Shown: piece after piece, positions 41,876-49,928 of the stretch
How the letters are laid out: each line of letters opens with the position of its first letter
How positions within the stretch are numbered: the first letter of the stretch is position 1
Origin: Planctomycetota bacterium
GTDB taxonomy: Bacteria; Planctomycetota; Phycisphaerae; Phycisphaerales; SM1A02
DNA: 64,000 bases
Direction: 5' to 3'
Assembly (NCBI GenBank): GCA_024230295.1
Contig: JAAERN010000009.1
Span: forward strand, 1 to 64,000
Position numbers and translations under genes: made by a program
Notes under the pieces: generated by a model
Database searches by the model: none
Told to the model about the DNA's origin: nothing
Seen by the model: the letters and a program-made list of their open reading frames with translations, nothing else

Positions 41876-42859
41876 ATGGTGGACATCCAAGCAGACCAAC
41901 CAGCAGTCGATGAGGCGGTCCGCCAACTCAAGGGTGGTGGGGTCGTGGTGATTCCGACGGAAACGGTTTATGGGCTGGCAGGCAGGACCAGCGATATCGG
42001 GGCGATTGACCGGATATTTGCGCTGAAAGGCCGGCCACTCGACAATCCATTGATTGCCCATGTGCTGGACTCGGCAGGTGCGAGCAGTGTGGCGGCGCAT
42101 TGGCCGGACTCAGCCAAGGCGTTGGCTGCGGCATTTTGGCCTGGACCACTGACGATGATTGTGGAACGGAACCAAAATATCCCCGCCCGGGCTTCTGCTG
42201 GGCTGGACACCATTGCCGTTCGTGCCCCACAACATCCAATGGCCCGTGCGATCCTCAAAGGGGTTGGCGAGGCAATTTCTGCCCCATCCGCCAACCGATC
42301 AGGCCGTGTGTCGCCGACCTCTGCCGAGCATGTCAAGGCGGACTATGAAGGTGTTCGAGAAGCGGCCGATCTTCTGGTCGTCGATGGGGGGAGTTGTGGG
42401 TGCGGCATTGAGTCGACGGTGCTCGATCTCACTGGACCGGCACCGCGCATTCTTCGGGCAGGGAGCGTTTTGGCGAGTCAGATCGAGGCCGTCATCGGGC
42501 CTCTTGTTGGCGGATCACTGCCGATGTCACAGGTGGCGTCTCCGGGAACACGAAGCCGCCACTACGCGCCTATGAAACCGGTCATTCGTGTTGAAACTGG
42601 CGATGTCGAGCGGCATCTGGCTGGGTCAACTGACCCGGTCGTCGTGGTGGGGGGCTCAGACCTGGTGGTTCCAAGCCCACATCGACACATGGTGCTCTCC
42701 GATTCTCCAGAGGTCGCAGCGCGGGTGCTCTACAACCACCTCCGAGACGCAGACGGGCAGCCAGGCGACCACATCGTCATCGTGCTTCCACCTGACACAC
42801 CGGCATGGCAAGCGGTGCGAGACCGCTTGATTCGTGCCTCGGTTTCAGAGTCAGGGTGA
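41876..42859 (+). CDS. L-threonylcarbamoyladenylate synthase (Sua5/YwlC/TsaC family)
   Basis: GGVVVIPTETVYGLAGRTSDIGAIDRIFALKGRPLDNPLIAHV; ISAPSANRSGRVSPTSAEHV; C-terminal Sua5-like extension SPGTRSRHYAP. Confidence 0.95.
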   Translation: MVDIQADQPAVDEAVRQLKGGGVVVIPTETVYGLAGRTSDIGAIDRIFALKGRPLDNPLIAHVLDSAGASSVAAHWPDSAKALAAAFWPGPLTMIVERNQNIPARASAGLDTIAVRAPQHPMARAILKGVGEAISAPSANRSGRVSPTSAEHVKADYEGVREAADLLVVDGGSCGCGIESTVLDLTGPAPRILRAGSVLASQIEAVIGPLVGGSLPMSQVASPGTRSRHYAPMKPVIRVETGDVERHLAGSTDPVVVVGGSDLVVPSPHRHMVLSDSPEVAARVLYNHLRDADGQPGDHIVIVLPPDTPAWQAVRDRLIRASVSESG

Positions 42860-43801
42860 CGGTGTTGTGCAGACGACAAAGTCCGCCTGTGGATCATCTT
42901 GATTTGGCTCAACCTCTTCCAGATCCGGCTCAAGACTGATCGTCATCACAATGGCGGATGGATGCAAACGCCGAATTTGCTGAACTGTTCCACCATTCCA
43001 ATCACTGTGAAACCGGCCGACCAACAGCATCATCGGCGGCCCCGCCTTTTTCAAACCGGTTGAGACCGATGCGGCCATTGTGGCATCCCACACTTGCTGC
43101 GAGAGGAAGAATGATTCAGCAATCACCAATGCTTCCGCAATAGTCTCCTCGGTATCACCATCTTCGCCGTGACCACCCATGAGTTCGATGAACCGATCGC
43201 GATAGTCGCCAGTGATCGGTGTGTCTGGGTGGTCAACAAAGCGGGCTCGTTCTTGCCCAAGCTCGTCGATAGCTTCCCAGCCGCCTAGCCGCGCAGCCCG
43301 CACATAGCGGCGGGGCGCATTGGCTGCGATGACGATACCGTTCCGTTCGATCGCGGCATCAATGGTCGGCTGATACCAGGCTTCCCAACTTCCGGGACCC
43401 GACCACGATGTCGATCCAGATTCCTTGGCGAATACCTCGGCGTCAATCACACCATCCCGATAATCCTCAACCAGGACCTGTTCGTCTCGCTCAAGCATTT
43501 CAAGCGCCACACCGCCTTTGCCATCCACGGTGTCAAGGAGATCCTCGATGACGGCGAGTTGGACCGCATGCCCCGTGGCATCATTGTGCTGCTCGCCCAG
43601 TACGACGACATCAGATCCTATGAGGCGATCTACCAACACTTCCCACTCAAGATGCTCGCCCGAGCGGCCATCAATGATGATGAGATCGGACCTGACATCG
43701 ACAAGCGAGCGAGAGACTGGCGCCTGCTTCGGGGCCGCGCAGCTGACCATGGAAACGGCGGACACTGACAAGAGAAGGCCGAATAGAAGGCGTATACGCA
43801 T
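42851..43801 (-). CDS. ChaN-family (DUF399) lipoprotein
   Basis: SVSAVSMVSCAAPK lipobox; DVVVLGEQHNDATGHAVQLAVIEDLL; VALEMLERDEQ; MLLVGRFHSDWNGGTVQQIRR. Confidence 0.85.
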   Translation of the reverse strand: MRIRLLFGLLLSVSAVSMVSCAAPKQAPVSRSLVDVRSDLIIIDGRSGEHLEWEVLVDRLIGSDVVVLGEQHNDATGHAVQLAVIEDLLDTVDGKGGVALEMLERDEQVLVEDYRDGVIDAEVFAKESGSTSWSGPGSWEAWYQPTIDAAIERNGIVIAANAPRRYVRAARLGGWEAIDELGQERARFVDHPDTPITGDYRDRFIELMGGHGEDGDTEETIAEALVIAESFFLSQQVWDATMAASVSTGLKKAGPPMMLLVGRFHSDWNGGTVQQIRRLHPSAIVMTISLEPDLEEVEPNQDDPQADFVVCTTPSP

Positions 43802-43907: not shown

Positions 43908-44828
43908 ATGAACGCAAACAGCCCCGGACTCGACACCGTCATCGGTGGTCAGTCAAGTACAAGCCCCGACGAAGCTTTGGCCCTGGCCGCTGCCTTGGAA
44001 AAGGATGGCGAACGAATCAAAGCGATTGAAGCGCTGGAAGGCGCCTCGGCCGGTGGTGACGAGCGTGTGCTATTCCGCCTTGCTTGGTTGTATGACCTGT
44101 GTGGCGAAGAAGACAAGGCAGTTGCGATGTACCGAGAGTGCATCGACTCCGACCGACCATTGGTCAACGCTGTCATGAACCTGGCTGTGATTCTCGAAGA
44201 TCGCGGCGACTTTGTGTCTGCTGAGAAGTACCTGCAGATGATCGTCAACACGGACCCGAACAACCTCCGAGCCCGTTTGTTCCTTCGTGATGTCCAAGCA
44301 TCCAAGAGTATGTATTACGACGAAGCAGAAGCCCGCGACGTGGCCAAGCAGAATGCACTCATGGACACGCCGGTCACCGACTTTGAACTTTCAGTTCGTG
44401 CGCGGAACTGCCTCAAGAAGATGGAAATCCGAACACTCGGCGATCTTCTCAAAGTGTCCGAGGCCGAACTTCTCTCCTATAAGAACTTCGGCGAAACATC
44501 CTTGGTGGAAATCAAGAGCATGTTGACTTCGCGGAATCTCCGGCTTGGGCAGAATCTTGAGACGCAGTATCACCGCGTCCGCGCCGAGGTCTACGAAGAC
44601 CTCAAAGACCGAGCTTCAGAGGAAGTTCTATCGCGGCCAATCTCAAGCCTCAACTTCTCGGTCCGCGCACGTAAGGCACTCCAGATTCTGGGCGTCCAGA
44701 CGGTTGGTGATCTTGCCACCCGAACCGAGGCCGAGTTGATGGGGATTAAGAACTTTGGATCAACCAGTTTGGACGAGGTTCGCGAGCGTCTCGGCCACAT
44801 TGATCTTGAACTTCGAGTTCTCGACTGA
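43908..44828 (+). CDS. TPR protein with two tandem RNA polymerase alpha C-terminal-like domains
   Basis: TPR-like region (VLFRLAWLYDLCGEEDKAVAMYRECIDSDRPLVNAVMNLAVILEDRGDFVSAEKYLQMIV) then FELSVRARNCLKKMEIRTLGDLLKVSEAELLSYKNFGETSLVEIKSML and LNFSVRARKALQILGVQTVGDLATRTEAELMGIKNFGSTSLDEVRERL. Confidence 0.92.
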   Translation: MNANSPGLDTVIGGQSSTSPDEALALAAALEKDGERIKAIEALEGASAGGDERVLFRLAWLYDLCGEEDKAVAMYRECIDSDRPLVNAVMNLAVILEDRGDFVSAEKYLQMIVNTDPNNLRARLFLRDVQASKSMYYDEAEARDVAKQNALMDTPVTDFELSVRARNCLKKMEIRTLGDLLKVSEAELLSYKNFGETSLVEIKSMLTSRNLRLGQNLETQYHRVRAEVYEDLKDRASEEVLSRPISSLNFSVRARKALQILGVQTVGDLATRTEAELMGIKNFGSTSLDEVRERLGHIDLELRVLD

Positions 44829-46101: not shown

Positions 46102-47040
46102 CTATTGGCGTGCAACTGTCGTGATGTCTCGATCAATCCAAGGAGCGGTTGCCTGGTGCTGCTCATCAACGTTCGTGGCTGGGCCGAAGCCCTCGAACGG
46201 GTTGGATAGATCACTGCTGCCAGTGGCATCGTTGACGAGGGACCGGGCGCGGTGTTCATACTCACCCTGCTTGCCTCGTTCGCCAAGTGCCTGAAGCGTT
46301 CCTTCTTGCACGGCTTGCAGTTCAGCAAGACGAGTTTCGATCGCGCGAAGCGTCTCTGAGTCGCCAGGTGATTGGAATTGCTGGAGTGTCTCGTGTTGTG
46401 ATTCGGTCAGAGCGATGAGTCGATCGTTGCGCTCAATGGAGTCGATTTGCCGATCAAGCTGCCAGACCTGAGCTTGGTACTGGGAATACTCACGCTCAAC
46501 TTGCTCAAGAAGCGTCGTCAGGCGGTCGTGTTGCGAGGAGAGCATTTCAACCTGTCGCTGGTCGGCCACGAGTCGCTCTTGATAGGTCGAACGAATGCCC
46601 TGAATTCTGCGACCTTCTTTGTAGGCGACGGTGAGGTTGACGCCCGCATCTCCCTTGATCAATGAAACCTGCCGCACGCCACCGATTTCAGCGTCACGGA
46701 CCTTTCCGGCGAGCCGATCAAGATCGCTCTCGGTCATAGCTACAACGCGGCGGGCGACGTCGGCATCGTGTGCCATTTGGTCGACCTGGCTGTCGATCCG
46801 AGCAATCTCACCGCGAATCTCAGCGATGCGATCTGGATAGACACCAGCGAGTTCATGGAGCTTTGATCGCAGGGACTTGGCCTCTTCGACGTCGATGTAT
46901 TGATCGACGATGATGCTGGCTTGATCTTGGAATGTCTCAAACGCGGCCGCAACCCGTCCGGGACCGATGATGATGGTGACTCCGCCTACGGCTATTCCGG
47001 CAATGAGTGTCCAACGAACGATGGTCTTGCAGATGTTCAT
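46102..47040 (-). CDS. membrane-anchored coiled-coil protein, hypothetical
   Basis: N-terminal TM WTLIAGIAVGGVTIIIG followed by long heptad-rich sequence. Confidence 0.7.
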   Translation of the reverse strand: MNICKTIVRWTLIAGIAVGGVTIIIGPGRVAAAFETFQDQASIIVDQYIDVEEAKSLRSKLHELAGVYPDRIAEIRGEIARIDSQVDQMAHDADVARRVVAMTESDLDRLAGKVRDAEIGGVRQVSLIKGDAGVNLTVAYKEGRRIQGIRSTYQERLVADQRQVEMLSSQHDRLTTLLEQVEREYSQYQAQVWQLDRQIDSIERNDRLIALTESQHETLQQFQSPGDSETLRAIETRLAELQAVQEGTLQALGERGKQGEYEHRARSLVNDATGSSDLSNPFEGFGPATNVDEQHQATAPWIDRDITTVARQ

Positions 47041-47268
47041 GTGTCAGTCCTTCTGCCACGCTTCGGGGTGGCGTCCGGGACATCATTGGGGTTTGGGGTG
47101 GTGGTATTTCACGCGGGTTAGGGCTTGGTTGTGGAAAAGAAGGGCGTGTGGCCCGGCGTATCCCCATTTTGGGAAGGATTCCGGCGTGTTCATGTGACAG
47201 TGGCCCCAAGGGAGGCGAAACTAGGAACACCCGAATCCCAATGAATGGAAGCGGGCGGGATCAACTCC

Positions 47269-47994
47269 ATGCATCAACTCACCACAACATTTGTCCGCAG
47301 GCTTCGAGACCGCGATGAGGCGGCGTGGTTCGAGTTGTGGCAGGTCTTCGGGCCTGTTCTTCGTGGTCAGCTCATGAAGTGGGGTAACGGCCGGCTCGGA
47401 ATGGAGACAGTTCGTGACCTCAGTCAAGAGACTCTGGCTGCCCTGAGCAAATCGATCGAACGATTTGATCCAACACGCGGTGTCCGATTCAGCACTTGGC
47501 TGCTCGCAATTGCCAAGCACGCCTTGAGTGATGAGATGGACCGCCGGATGGCGCTCAAACGAGGTGCTGGTCGCCGACCCACACATCTCGAAGAAGATTG
47601 GATGGGCGGTATCGGGGCCGCTGTTGACACGCAGTATGAGCAGCGGATCTTCGAAGCCAAGGTGGCTGCTGCTATCCGACGTGCTGGATCCAGCGGGGAC
47701 TTTGTGTCATTTGAGGTGTACCGTATGCGTGTCTTTGATGGACGCAGTGGCAAAGACGTCGCAGATCAGATTGGCGTGAGCCAACCGACGATCAGCCGCC
47801 GTCTTCAGGACGCGCGTTCTCACTTGCGGACGCAATTATCAGAGATCGTCGCCACATGGAGTTTCACGCCTGAGGAGATGGCCGAAGCCGAACTCGCGGG
47901 ACTCTCCGCGGACGACTCGCTCTTTGATGAGGCGCTTGGCGAAATATGGCATCGCGCAGCGTCCCAAGACGACTCGGCGGAAGCCGAGCACTGA
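47269..47994 (+). CDS. ECF-type RNA polymerase sigma factor
   Basis: VRDLSQETLAALSKSIERFDPTRGVRFSTWLLAIAKHALSDEMDRR; region 4 GKDVADQIGVSQPTISRRLQDARSHLR. Confidence 0.88.
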   Translation: MHQLTTTFVRRLRDRDEAAWFELWQVFGPVLRGQLMKWGNGRLGMETVRDLSQETLAALSKSIERFDPTRGVRFSTWLLAIAKHALSDEMDRRMALKRGAGRRPTHLEEDWMGGIGAAVDTQYEQRIFEAKVAAAIRRAGSSGDFVSFEVYRMRVFDGRSGKDVADQIGVSQPTISRRLQDARSHLRTQLSEIVATWSFTPEEMAEAELAGLSADDSLFDEALGEIWHRAASQDDSAEAEH

Positions 47995-47999
47995 TTGGT

Positions 48000-49928
48000 A
48001 TGTGGAAGATTTTCATCATCCTGCTTGTAGTCGTAGCGACAGTGATCGCGGCCACATCGATCGGTGTATTGTTTCGCCATCTCCTGATGCCAACTGTGCG
48101 AGCGGTTTTCAAGGCAATTGCGCTTCTTGGTCAAGTTGTACTTGAGTTGATCCGCGACTTGTTTGCTGCAACGTGGCACATCATTGTTTCAATACTGGTG
48201 CTTCCGGCAATCATCGGAGCATTGCTGTTTGGCCGGTGGGAATCGGCTTCAAGAATGGCCCGCGGGCTCGGAAGCCGATTTCGGCGGGTGGGTCGTCGCA
48301 TTGGCGGTTTGGTTACTCGAACGGCGCCGGCGGCGGGCATGGTTCGGCGGACCCCAAACCAACCCCAGAAGCGAAAGTCGCGCCGATCAGAGGGAAGGTT
48401 TCCAGGGTGGAAACTCGTTGGATCACTGCAAGCGGGGGGTTCTGGAGCAGAACTTCACATTGCGGAACCAGATATCGGGGCGCCACCAGATGCTCCACCT
48501 CGAGTCGTCATTAAGTGCTTCGATGTGGCGGACGGATCTCCACTTGGCCACATGATTCGAGAGTCAAGGGCGCTTGATGGGGCAAAGAAGCTCGGCCTCG
48601 TCATCGAACACGACCACGATGAGTCGCGGTTCTGGTACGTCATGCCATTCATCCCAGGTGTTCATTTGGCCGACGCAGTGAAGTCAATACACACCACCAG
48701 TGGCCCGCTCGACACGACATTGATTAGCAACGCAGTTGTGTGGGCGAGAGATTTACTTTCGATTCTGCACGAATACCACAATGCGGGTTTCTGGCACAAA
48801 GATGTCAAGCCCGAGAACATCATCATAAACGACACCGGGGCGCACTTGGTTGACTTGGGTCTTGTGACACCACTCCAGTCTGCCATGACGTTGACGACGC
48901 ACGGAACAGAGTATTTTCGAGACCCAGAACTTGTTCGTCAGGCACTCCGCGGTGCCAAGGTGTCCGAAGTGGATGGCGCACGCTTTGATATCTACTCCGC
49001 AGGCGCGGTGCTGTACTACATGGTGGAAGGAACATTTCCTGCGCACGGCAACCTGAGTCGGTTTGACCGCGAGCATGGCGACGCGGTGCGTTGGGTGGTT
49101 CGCAGGGCGATGGCCGATTATCACCAGCGGTATGCCAATGCCGCCGAGATGCTGGCGGACGTCGCCCATTTGGCTTCGGCCACCGATCCCCGTGCAGTGC
49201 GTCCCGCTGATCTCCCGAGCTTTACAGGCGAGCCCTCTGAGATACCAGCGCCGCCAGCGCCACCAGTAGCATCGGTGGGGGATGTTCGCCGCCGGCCGAA
49301 TATCGAAGTGACTGATTGGTGGAGCGGCGCCTACCTCGTGCGTGATGCTGTGCCTGGTGTGCCTCAACGTTTGCCCGACGGTTTTTCAAACGCCCGCCGA
49401 AAGAAGAGTGAGGCTCGCCAGCGGCGCTATGAGGAGCGGCAGCGTCGCCGCGCCGTGCGGCGAACTGCAGTTGGTGGCGTCTTTGCGTTCATAGTCGGAT
49501 TGCTGGTGTTGGTGGGTACCTATGGCGTCTTGGTGTCAACCAGGTCGCCTGTGAACAGCCAACAGCACATCGCAGCGAACCTTCCATCTGGTACTGGTGC
49601 AATTGTTGTTCTCAATGATCATCCCCATGGCATTGATGCGTCTGAGGCTGTCATCCAGGCGCTGGCTACCGGCGGTTGGGTGCCGCGCGAGGATGCTCAA
49701 CTCGAGGCATCGATTCGCCGCGTGATGCCCATGGCCGGGACACAGTCGCCTGATCTTGCGACTCTCTTGGCACCTGCATTTGCGACGAATCCGAACATCT
49801 CAGCCGCGATCATCCAATCGCCCGATGGCGACCCTGACGGTATCGAGGTTGTCATGGTCCGGGGTGACCAGAGCAGTACCCACCGCCTGCCGCCTCTGCT
49901 CACCAAGCCCGTACAATCTGCTCCATGA
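48000..49928 (+). CDS. membrane serine/threonine protein kinase
   Basis: N-terminal TM helices; PRVVIKCFDV; HKDVKPENIIINDTGAHLVDLGLVTPL; C-terminal TM FAFIVGLLVLVGTYGVLV. Confidence 0.9.
   Translation: MWKIFIILLVVVATVIAATSIGVLFRHLLMPTVRAVFKAIALLGQVVLELIRDLFAATWHIIVSILVLPAIIGALLFGRWESASRMARGLGSRFRRVGRRIGGLVTRTAPAAGMVRRTPNQPQKRKSRRSEGRFPGWKLVGSLQAGGSGAELHIAEPDIGAPPDAPPRVVIKCFDVADGSPLGHMIRESRALDGAKKLGLVIEHDHDESRFWYVMPFIPGVHLADAVKSIHTTSGPLDTTLISNAVVWARDLLSILHEYHNAGFWHKDVKPENIIINDTGAHLVDLGLVTPLQSAMTLTTHGTEYFRDPELVRQALRGAKVSEVDGARFDIYSAGAVLYYMVEGTFPAHGNLSRFDREHGDAVRWVVRRAMADYHQRYANAAEMLADVAHLASATDPRAVRPADLPSFTGEPSEIPAPPAPPVASVGDVRRRPNIEVTDWWSGAYLVRDAVPGVPQRLPDGFSNARRKKSEARQRRYEERQRRRAVRRTAVGGVFAFIVGLLVLVGTYGVLVSTRSPVNSQQHIAANLPSGTGAIVVLNDHPHGIDASEAVIQALATGGWVPREDAQLEASIRRVMPMAGTQSPDLATLLAPAFATNPNISAAIIQSPDGDPDGIEVVMVRGDQSSTHRLPPLLTKPVQSAP

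Follow-up and report, generated by a model that had tools for sequence, protein, structure and literature searches.

Organization of the Locus

In the window, by which we mean the whole 64,000-nucleotide stretch of planctomycete DNA analyzed, positions 43908–44828 of the forward strand encode a protein of 306 amino acids (plus stop codon), whose translation consists of a TPR region followed by two alpha-CTDs (PF03118). In RNA polymerase, the alpha-CTD is known as the tail by which UP elements and activators are recognized. The coding sequence was supported by its translation, by Pfam, and by the alignment of relatives, those of the same genus starting in register with the ATG at 43908 (...GLDTVIG) and aligning over the whole length. 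The mechanical open reading frame extends upstream to 43518, and this upstream stretch lies outside the conserved alignment. Purifying selection within the genus was strong, with dN/dS, where dS was estimable, of ~0.07–0.08 over the gene and ~0.03–0.05 in the first alpha-CTD (CTD1), at dS values near saturation; this places the domain observation far beyond chance.

Downstream on the same strand is a gene for a SpoIID-domain protein (PF08486; 44873–46078), which begins 44 bp past the stop codon if its GTG start is right. Upstream, a divergent gene on the reverse strand (42851–43801, probable start 43801), recognized by Pfam and its reading frame, encodes a ChaN-like (Cofac_haem_bdg) lipoprotein; the intergenic DNA leaves ~106 bp for both promoters, and tsaC/sua5 lies beyond. 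Farther along the window, a possibly coiled-coil protein of 312 amino acids is encoded on the reverse strand at 46102–47040 with no Pfam match, and at 47245–49928 the end of a sigma-70-family (ECF-like) gene overlaps, in another frame, a predicted Ser/Thr kinase frame.

The neighbors varied between lineages. The spoIID gene was a conserved neighbor in 31 of 77 loci, including four distant lineages. In several distant lineages the gene immediately preceded ruvA or spoIID and was part of a ruvAB-queH-spoIID-tgt-yajC-secDF cluster, of which the window keeps only spoIID; ruvA followed directly 3' on the same strand in 6 of the 19 distant loci (L135, L136, L137, L138, L140, and L145), with ruvB next in two of them. 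These surroundings suggest an old housekeeping locus rather than a mobile or defense island. A mobile or phage origin was rejected, as tblastn against phages and plasmids returned only partial matches (≤53% of the query) that were mostly annotated as RNA polymerase alpha; PHROGs gave a single weak match, to the TPR region. Membership in a defense system was likewise rejected, PADLOC having given just a sub-domain match to PglW.

Domain Composition and Predicted Structure

PF03118 matched the protein in two stretches with an E value of 2e-41 and 140 bits (cut-off, 23.8), the separate scores being 77.4 and 69.1 bits. TPR_14 (35 bits), TPR_2 (33.9), and TPR_7 (31.5) exceeded their gathering cut-offs at residues ~53–126. 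Pfam detected neither of the alpha N-terminal dimerisation/insert domains (PF01193 and PF01000) in the 306 residues. The NCBIfam rpoA equivalogs aligned to the protein via the CTDs only and stayed below their cut-offs (TIGR02027, 128.9 vs 227.8; NF003513, 130.3 vs 302). The rest of the genome contained one further PF03118, which belongs to an rpoA on another contig (C39) that is complete with its dimerisation, insert, and C-terminal domains. A truncated or duplicated rpoA was thus ruled out by the lack of the N-terminal domain, the equivalog scores, and the intact rpoA elsewhere. A generic helix-hairpin-helix repair domain, an assignment that the earlier note had named as speaking against its reading, was ruled out by the Pfam scores, HHH_5 reaching 20.9 bits against a cut-off of 27.

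AlphaFold2 modeling with 32 relatives gave a mean pLDDT of 83 and a pTM of 0.44. From N- to C-terminus, the model has a helical array of TPRs, then one CTD, a long linker helix, and the other CTD; because of the low pTM, the prediction does not fix the mutual arrangement of these domains. Foldseek matches in the PDB were TPR proteins and RNA polymerase alpha subunits. The alpha-CTD overlay with 8y5t_A2 had a TMt of 0.95 and an rmsd of 0.7, and the Caulobacter crescentus alpha-CTD on AT-rich DNA (9zum) superposed at 0.7–0.8 Å over 65–66 residues. The predicted models confirmed the expected folds for both domain kinds, so that TPR membership was indicated both by models above the cut-off and by a superhelix fold.

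From these data and the alignments, the TPR superhelix was assigned to residues ~20–135 (43965–44312), where the predicted helices H20–H135 had a pLDDT of ~90. It is followed by a linker with a widespread YYDEE-type motif, kept in most distant members (44313–44345). CTD1 (44346–44528) has the equivalents of R265, N268, C269, N294, G296, S299, and E302, with K297 replaced by Glu. A helical and poorly conserved inter-CTD linker (44529–44609; predicted helix 215–235, majority fraction 0.39) leads to the second alpha-CTD (CTD2; 44610–44792), in which R265, N294, G296, S299, and E302 are kept and N268 is replaced by Lys. The domain composition that the earlier note had read from the sequence, a TPR N-terminus with two alpha-CTD copies and no alpha N-terminal domain, was thereby borne out, as was the separate rpoA that it expected. 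Its residue assignments were also correct: the first copy keeps the Arg, Asn, Cys, Gly, Ser, and Glu positions, and the second keeps Arg and Ser with Lys at 268. The retention of N294, G296, and E302 in CTD2 had gone unmentioned.

Occurrence in Planctomycetota

With a family profile (strong match, E ≤ 1e-60), 239 of 244 Planctomycetota genomes of at least 85% completeness gave a strong match, in line with the earlier expectation that similar proteins occur in this phylum. Among the five exceptions, G090, G198, and G230 had short CTD2 fragments, that of G198 lying at a contig edge; in G175 and G345 the profile found not even a CTD2 fragment. Among 61 close relatives, 56 had the gene, and the other five (G001, G012, G015, G016, and G030) gave RpoA and unrelated TPR matches only. 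Real gene loss is possible in some small genomes, and the five close relatives seemingly without the gene indicate that it is not strictly indispensable. Members from the window's order were ~300–330 amino acids long. Outside that order, most open frames of the phylum spanned 430–610 codons, and the sequences that we read had additional N-terminal TPR-like sequence. Two contigs titled 'Leptolyngbya sp. PLA1' (L070) and 'Singulisphaera sp. GP187' (L093) carried Phycisphaerales-like copies, and these record names look wrong.

Scanning the GTDB collection with a pattern yielded 57 relatives of planctomycete type, plus a single locus from a Caenarcanales genome (G356). That locus was discarded as a family member outside the phylum, since its frame turned out to hold one CTD only. 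Across 98 genomes from the phylum to which G356 belongs, matches to RpoA and to TPRs occurred only separately. The family is likely restricted to Planctomycetota, the comparison outside covering these 98 genomes of one other phylum.

Evolution and Conservation of the Domains

In a tree of 43 CTD1, 43 CTD2, 23 planctomycete RpoA-CTD, and 3 outgroup domains, whose few columns limit its resolution, CTD1 formed one clade (support 98) and CTD2 another (support 88, which is not decisive), both apart from RpoA. The separation of these clades fits an architecture older than most of the diversification of the phylum, and vertical, nearly phylum-wide inheritance within Planctomycetota is part of the explanation that we favor. 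Among 17 genomes with all three domains, the mean pairwise identity was 0.72 for CTD1, 0.61 for RpoA-CTD, and 0.47 for CTD2. Of the 136 pairs, which are interdependent, 111 showed higher identity for CTD1 than for RpoA-CTD.

In the TPR regions of 105 members, N91, E97, and D98 were conserved at 99–100%, and the conserved last repeats contained an xNLGxxxEDRG-like motif. This conservation, together with the YYDEE-type motif found between the TPRs and CTD1 in most lineages, suggests that the last TPR repeats may share a common partner across members.

DNA-Contact and Activator Surfaces Compared with RpoA

It is established that the alpha-CTD contacts DNA through R265 and N268 (PMC11434276; PMC3828302). 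R265 was present in 101 of 102 CTD1 and in all 102 CTD2 domains, and N294, G296, S299, and E302 were near-invariant in both. At position 268, CTD1 had Asn in 71% and Thr in 27% of the domains, and 94% of CTD2 had Lys or Arg. In E. coli RpoA, N268T abolishes PBAD activity (PMC11434276). The position of K298 was Thr in the CTDs, as it is in the native RpoA of the phylum. In two loci of one lineage (L137 and L138, lineage f50), CTD2 was without the N-F-G DNA-loop motif, with R265 still present.

Three sites differed systematically from RpoA: R267 was near-universal in both CTDs; residues 271–273 were K-K-M in CTD1 and Q-L-L in CTD2 vs E-S-E in native RpoA; and position 297 (residue 196 of the protein described here), Lys in 91% of planctomycete RpoA, was acidic, Glu or Asp, in each of the 102 CTD1 domains. 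This charge reversal adjoins the DNA-contact loop and is near-diagnostic of CTD1. As a result of these changes, helix 1, which carries R265, was more basic (mean net charge, +3.4 in CTD1 and +2.9 in CTD2, against 0.0 in planctomycete RpoA), and the segment 292–304 on the loop/helix-4 face was less basic (-0.2, +0.7, and +2.2, respectively). The acidic 286–289 positions resembled RpoA. CTD1 kept the acidic pair at 259/261 (D259, 98%; E/D261, 99%), CTD2 to a lesser degree; in E. coli these positions face sigma region 4.

In enterobacteria, residues 271–273 form the contact patch for AraC, CysB, MelR, Fis, and MrkH (PMC11434276; PMC3828302). From the K-K-M sequence and the acidic residue at 297, CTD1 appears to be without the activator surface of RpoA; in our reading, that patch was not copied, and DNA binding was probably kept but re-tuned. 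The charge shift to helix 1 and the acidic residue at 297 favor autonomous DNA binding and speak against simple mimicry of the activator patch.

Comparison with Known Proteins

The protein shares with the RpoA alpha-CTD its fold, its family (PF03118), and R265, N294, G296, S299, and E302, CTD1 being on average 52% identical to the E. coli domain. It differs in having tandem CTDs on a TPR scaffold and no N-terminal dimerisation/insert domain, in a far more basic helix 1, in the acidic residue at 297 of CTD1, and in the Lys or Arg at 268 of CTD2. The BREX kinase PglW contains, at model positions ~771–864 of NF033442 and PDLC02512, a segment related to the RNA polymerase alpha-CTD, which CTD1 matched with 45.7 and 47.5 bits, respectively; however, PglW is a kinase of ~1400 amino acids that shares no TPR architecture with the protein, and 45.7 bits is far below the NF033442 cut-off of 990. 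The model of the hypothetical protein PRK07758/NF005841 also matched the alpha-CTD region (43.7 bits; cut-off, 115), but at 95 amino acids it has no room for a TPR array. MamA, the TPR domain of OGT, and consensus TPR proteins resembled the N-terminal region in sequence and superhelical fold, whereas none of these chains bears alpha-CTDs.

The component domains are known. The literature that we searched contained no description of a TPR protein with twin alpha-CTDs, nor of this architecture as a nearly phylum-wide protein, and the main text of the essential-gene paper on the genetically tractable planctomycete Planctopirus limnophila (PMC10632474) does not name the protein. Automatic annotation presumably gives it a generic name.

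Possible Function

The best explanation, to which we give about an even chance of being right, is that the protein is an accessory transcription factor that binds DNA bivalently and attaches to a partner via its TPRs. The two covalently linked alpha-CTDs would each bind DNA through the conserved Arg265-type contact, most likely at the A/T-rich minor groove of UP-element-like sequence, while the TPR superhelix would dock a partner, for instance RNA polymerase, a sigma factor, or an activator. The protein would thereby supply a promoter with two further alpha-CTDs of different tuning, or it would mark such DNA. DNA binding by the CTDs is predicted from residue conservation, and the role in transcription is putative. 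This explanation is favored by the combination of two PF03118 domains and TPRs with a fold like that in 9zum on AT-rich DNA, by the near-invariant R265, N294, G296, S299, and E302 and the basic helix 1, and by the acidic D259/E261 of CTD1, its identity above that of RpoA-CTD, and the presence of the gene in 239 of 244 genomes. Counting against it are the Thr268 in 27% of CTD1, given the effect of N268T in E. coli; the Glu or Asp at 297 in all CTD1 and a loop/helix-4 face less basic than in RpoA; the loss of the CTD2 N-F-G motif in two loci; neighbors that are DNA-repair, secretion, or wall genes and not transcription genes; and the apparent lack of the gene in 5 of 61 close relatives. A doubtful but more specific form is that the protein serves as an auxiliary 'third and fourth alpha-CTD', a TPR-borne subunit acting at promoters with RNA polymerase or activators with altered DNA specificity, in which case promoter recognition would be unlike that of the textbook alpha2.

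The same bivalent DNA-binding surface might instead belong to a nucleoid or architectural protein, in which the pair of alpha-CTDs would grip the minor grooves of AT-rich DNA throughout the genome, the TPRs would self-associate or form a scaffold, and any effect on transcription would be indirect. Near-universality in the phylum would suit a housekeeping architectural protein, and planctomycete DNA has been described as highly condensed (PMC10632474), but CTD1 keeps the sigma-facing acidic residues, and the conservation of its whole surface exceeds what bare DNA binding needs; we regard this role as unlikely. The placement of ruvA and, in two loci, ruvB directly behind the gene would suit a recombination or repair cofactor whose alpha-CTDs act with RuvAB as generic helix-hairpin-helix DNA binders. 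This is quite improbable, however, with the RNA_pol_A_CTD score of 140 bits far above that of HHH_5, and with a ruvA linkage that belongs to the general cluster and is absent from the window's lineage.

The strong form of the earlier interpretation, that the protein mimics the RpoA alpha-CTD as a decoy or adaptor and diverts transcription factors from RNA polymerase, draws on the alpha-CTD fold and the RpoA-like acidic 259/261 and 286–289 positions; it conflicts with the altered 271–273 patch of both CTDs and the charge reversal at K297, and we consider it slightly less probable again. A loss of DNA binding, the CTDs having become protein-interaction modules or binding RNA or ribosome-related partners, would agree with Thr268 and the shifted charge pattern; the R265 kept in 203 of 204 domains, together with N294, G296, S299, and E302, makes it very unlikely. 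The earlier interpretation as a whole was partly supported: the Pfam matches to both the RNA_pol_A_CTD and TPR families, the modeled alpha-CTD folds, and the near-invariant DNA-facing Arg agreed with it, and the K-K-M patch and the acidic residue at 297 of CTD1 spoke against simple mimicry of the RNA polymerase alpha-CTD. Putative competition with the RNA polymerase alpha-CTD for AT-rich DNA is possible.

An alpha-CTD has in this protein been freed from the polymerase, doubled, mounted on TPRs, and kept nearly phylum-wide, with CTD1 more constrained than the domain of RpoA itself. Such conservation suggests that transcription or nucleoid organization in Planctomycetota includes a basal or global layer that is so far undescribed.
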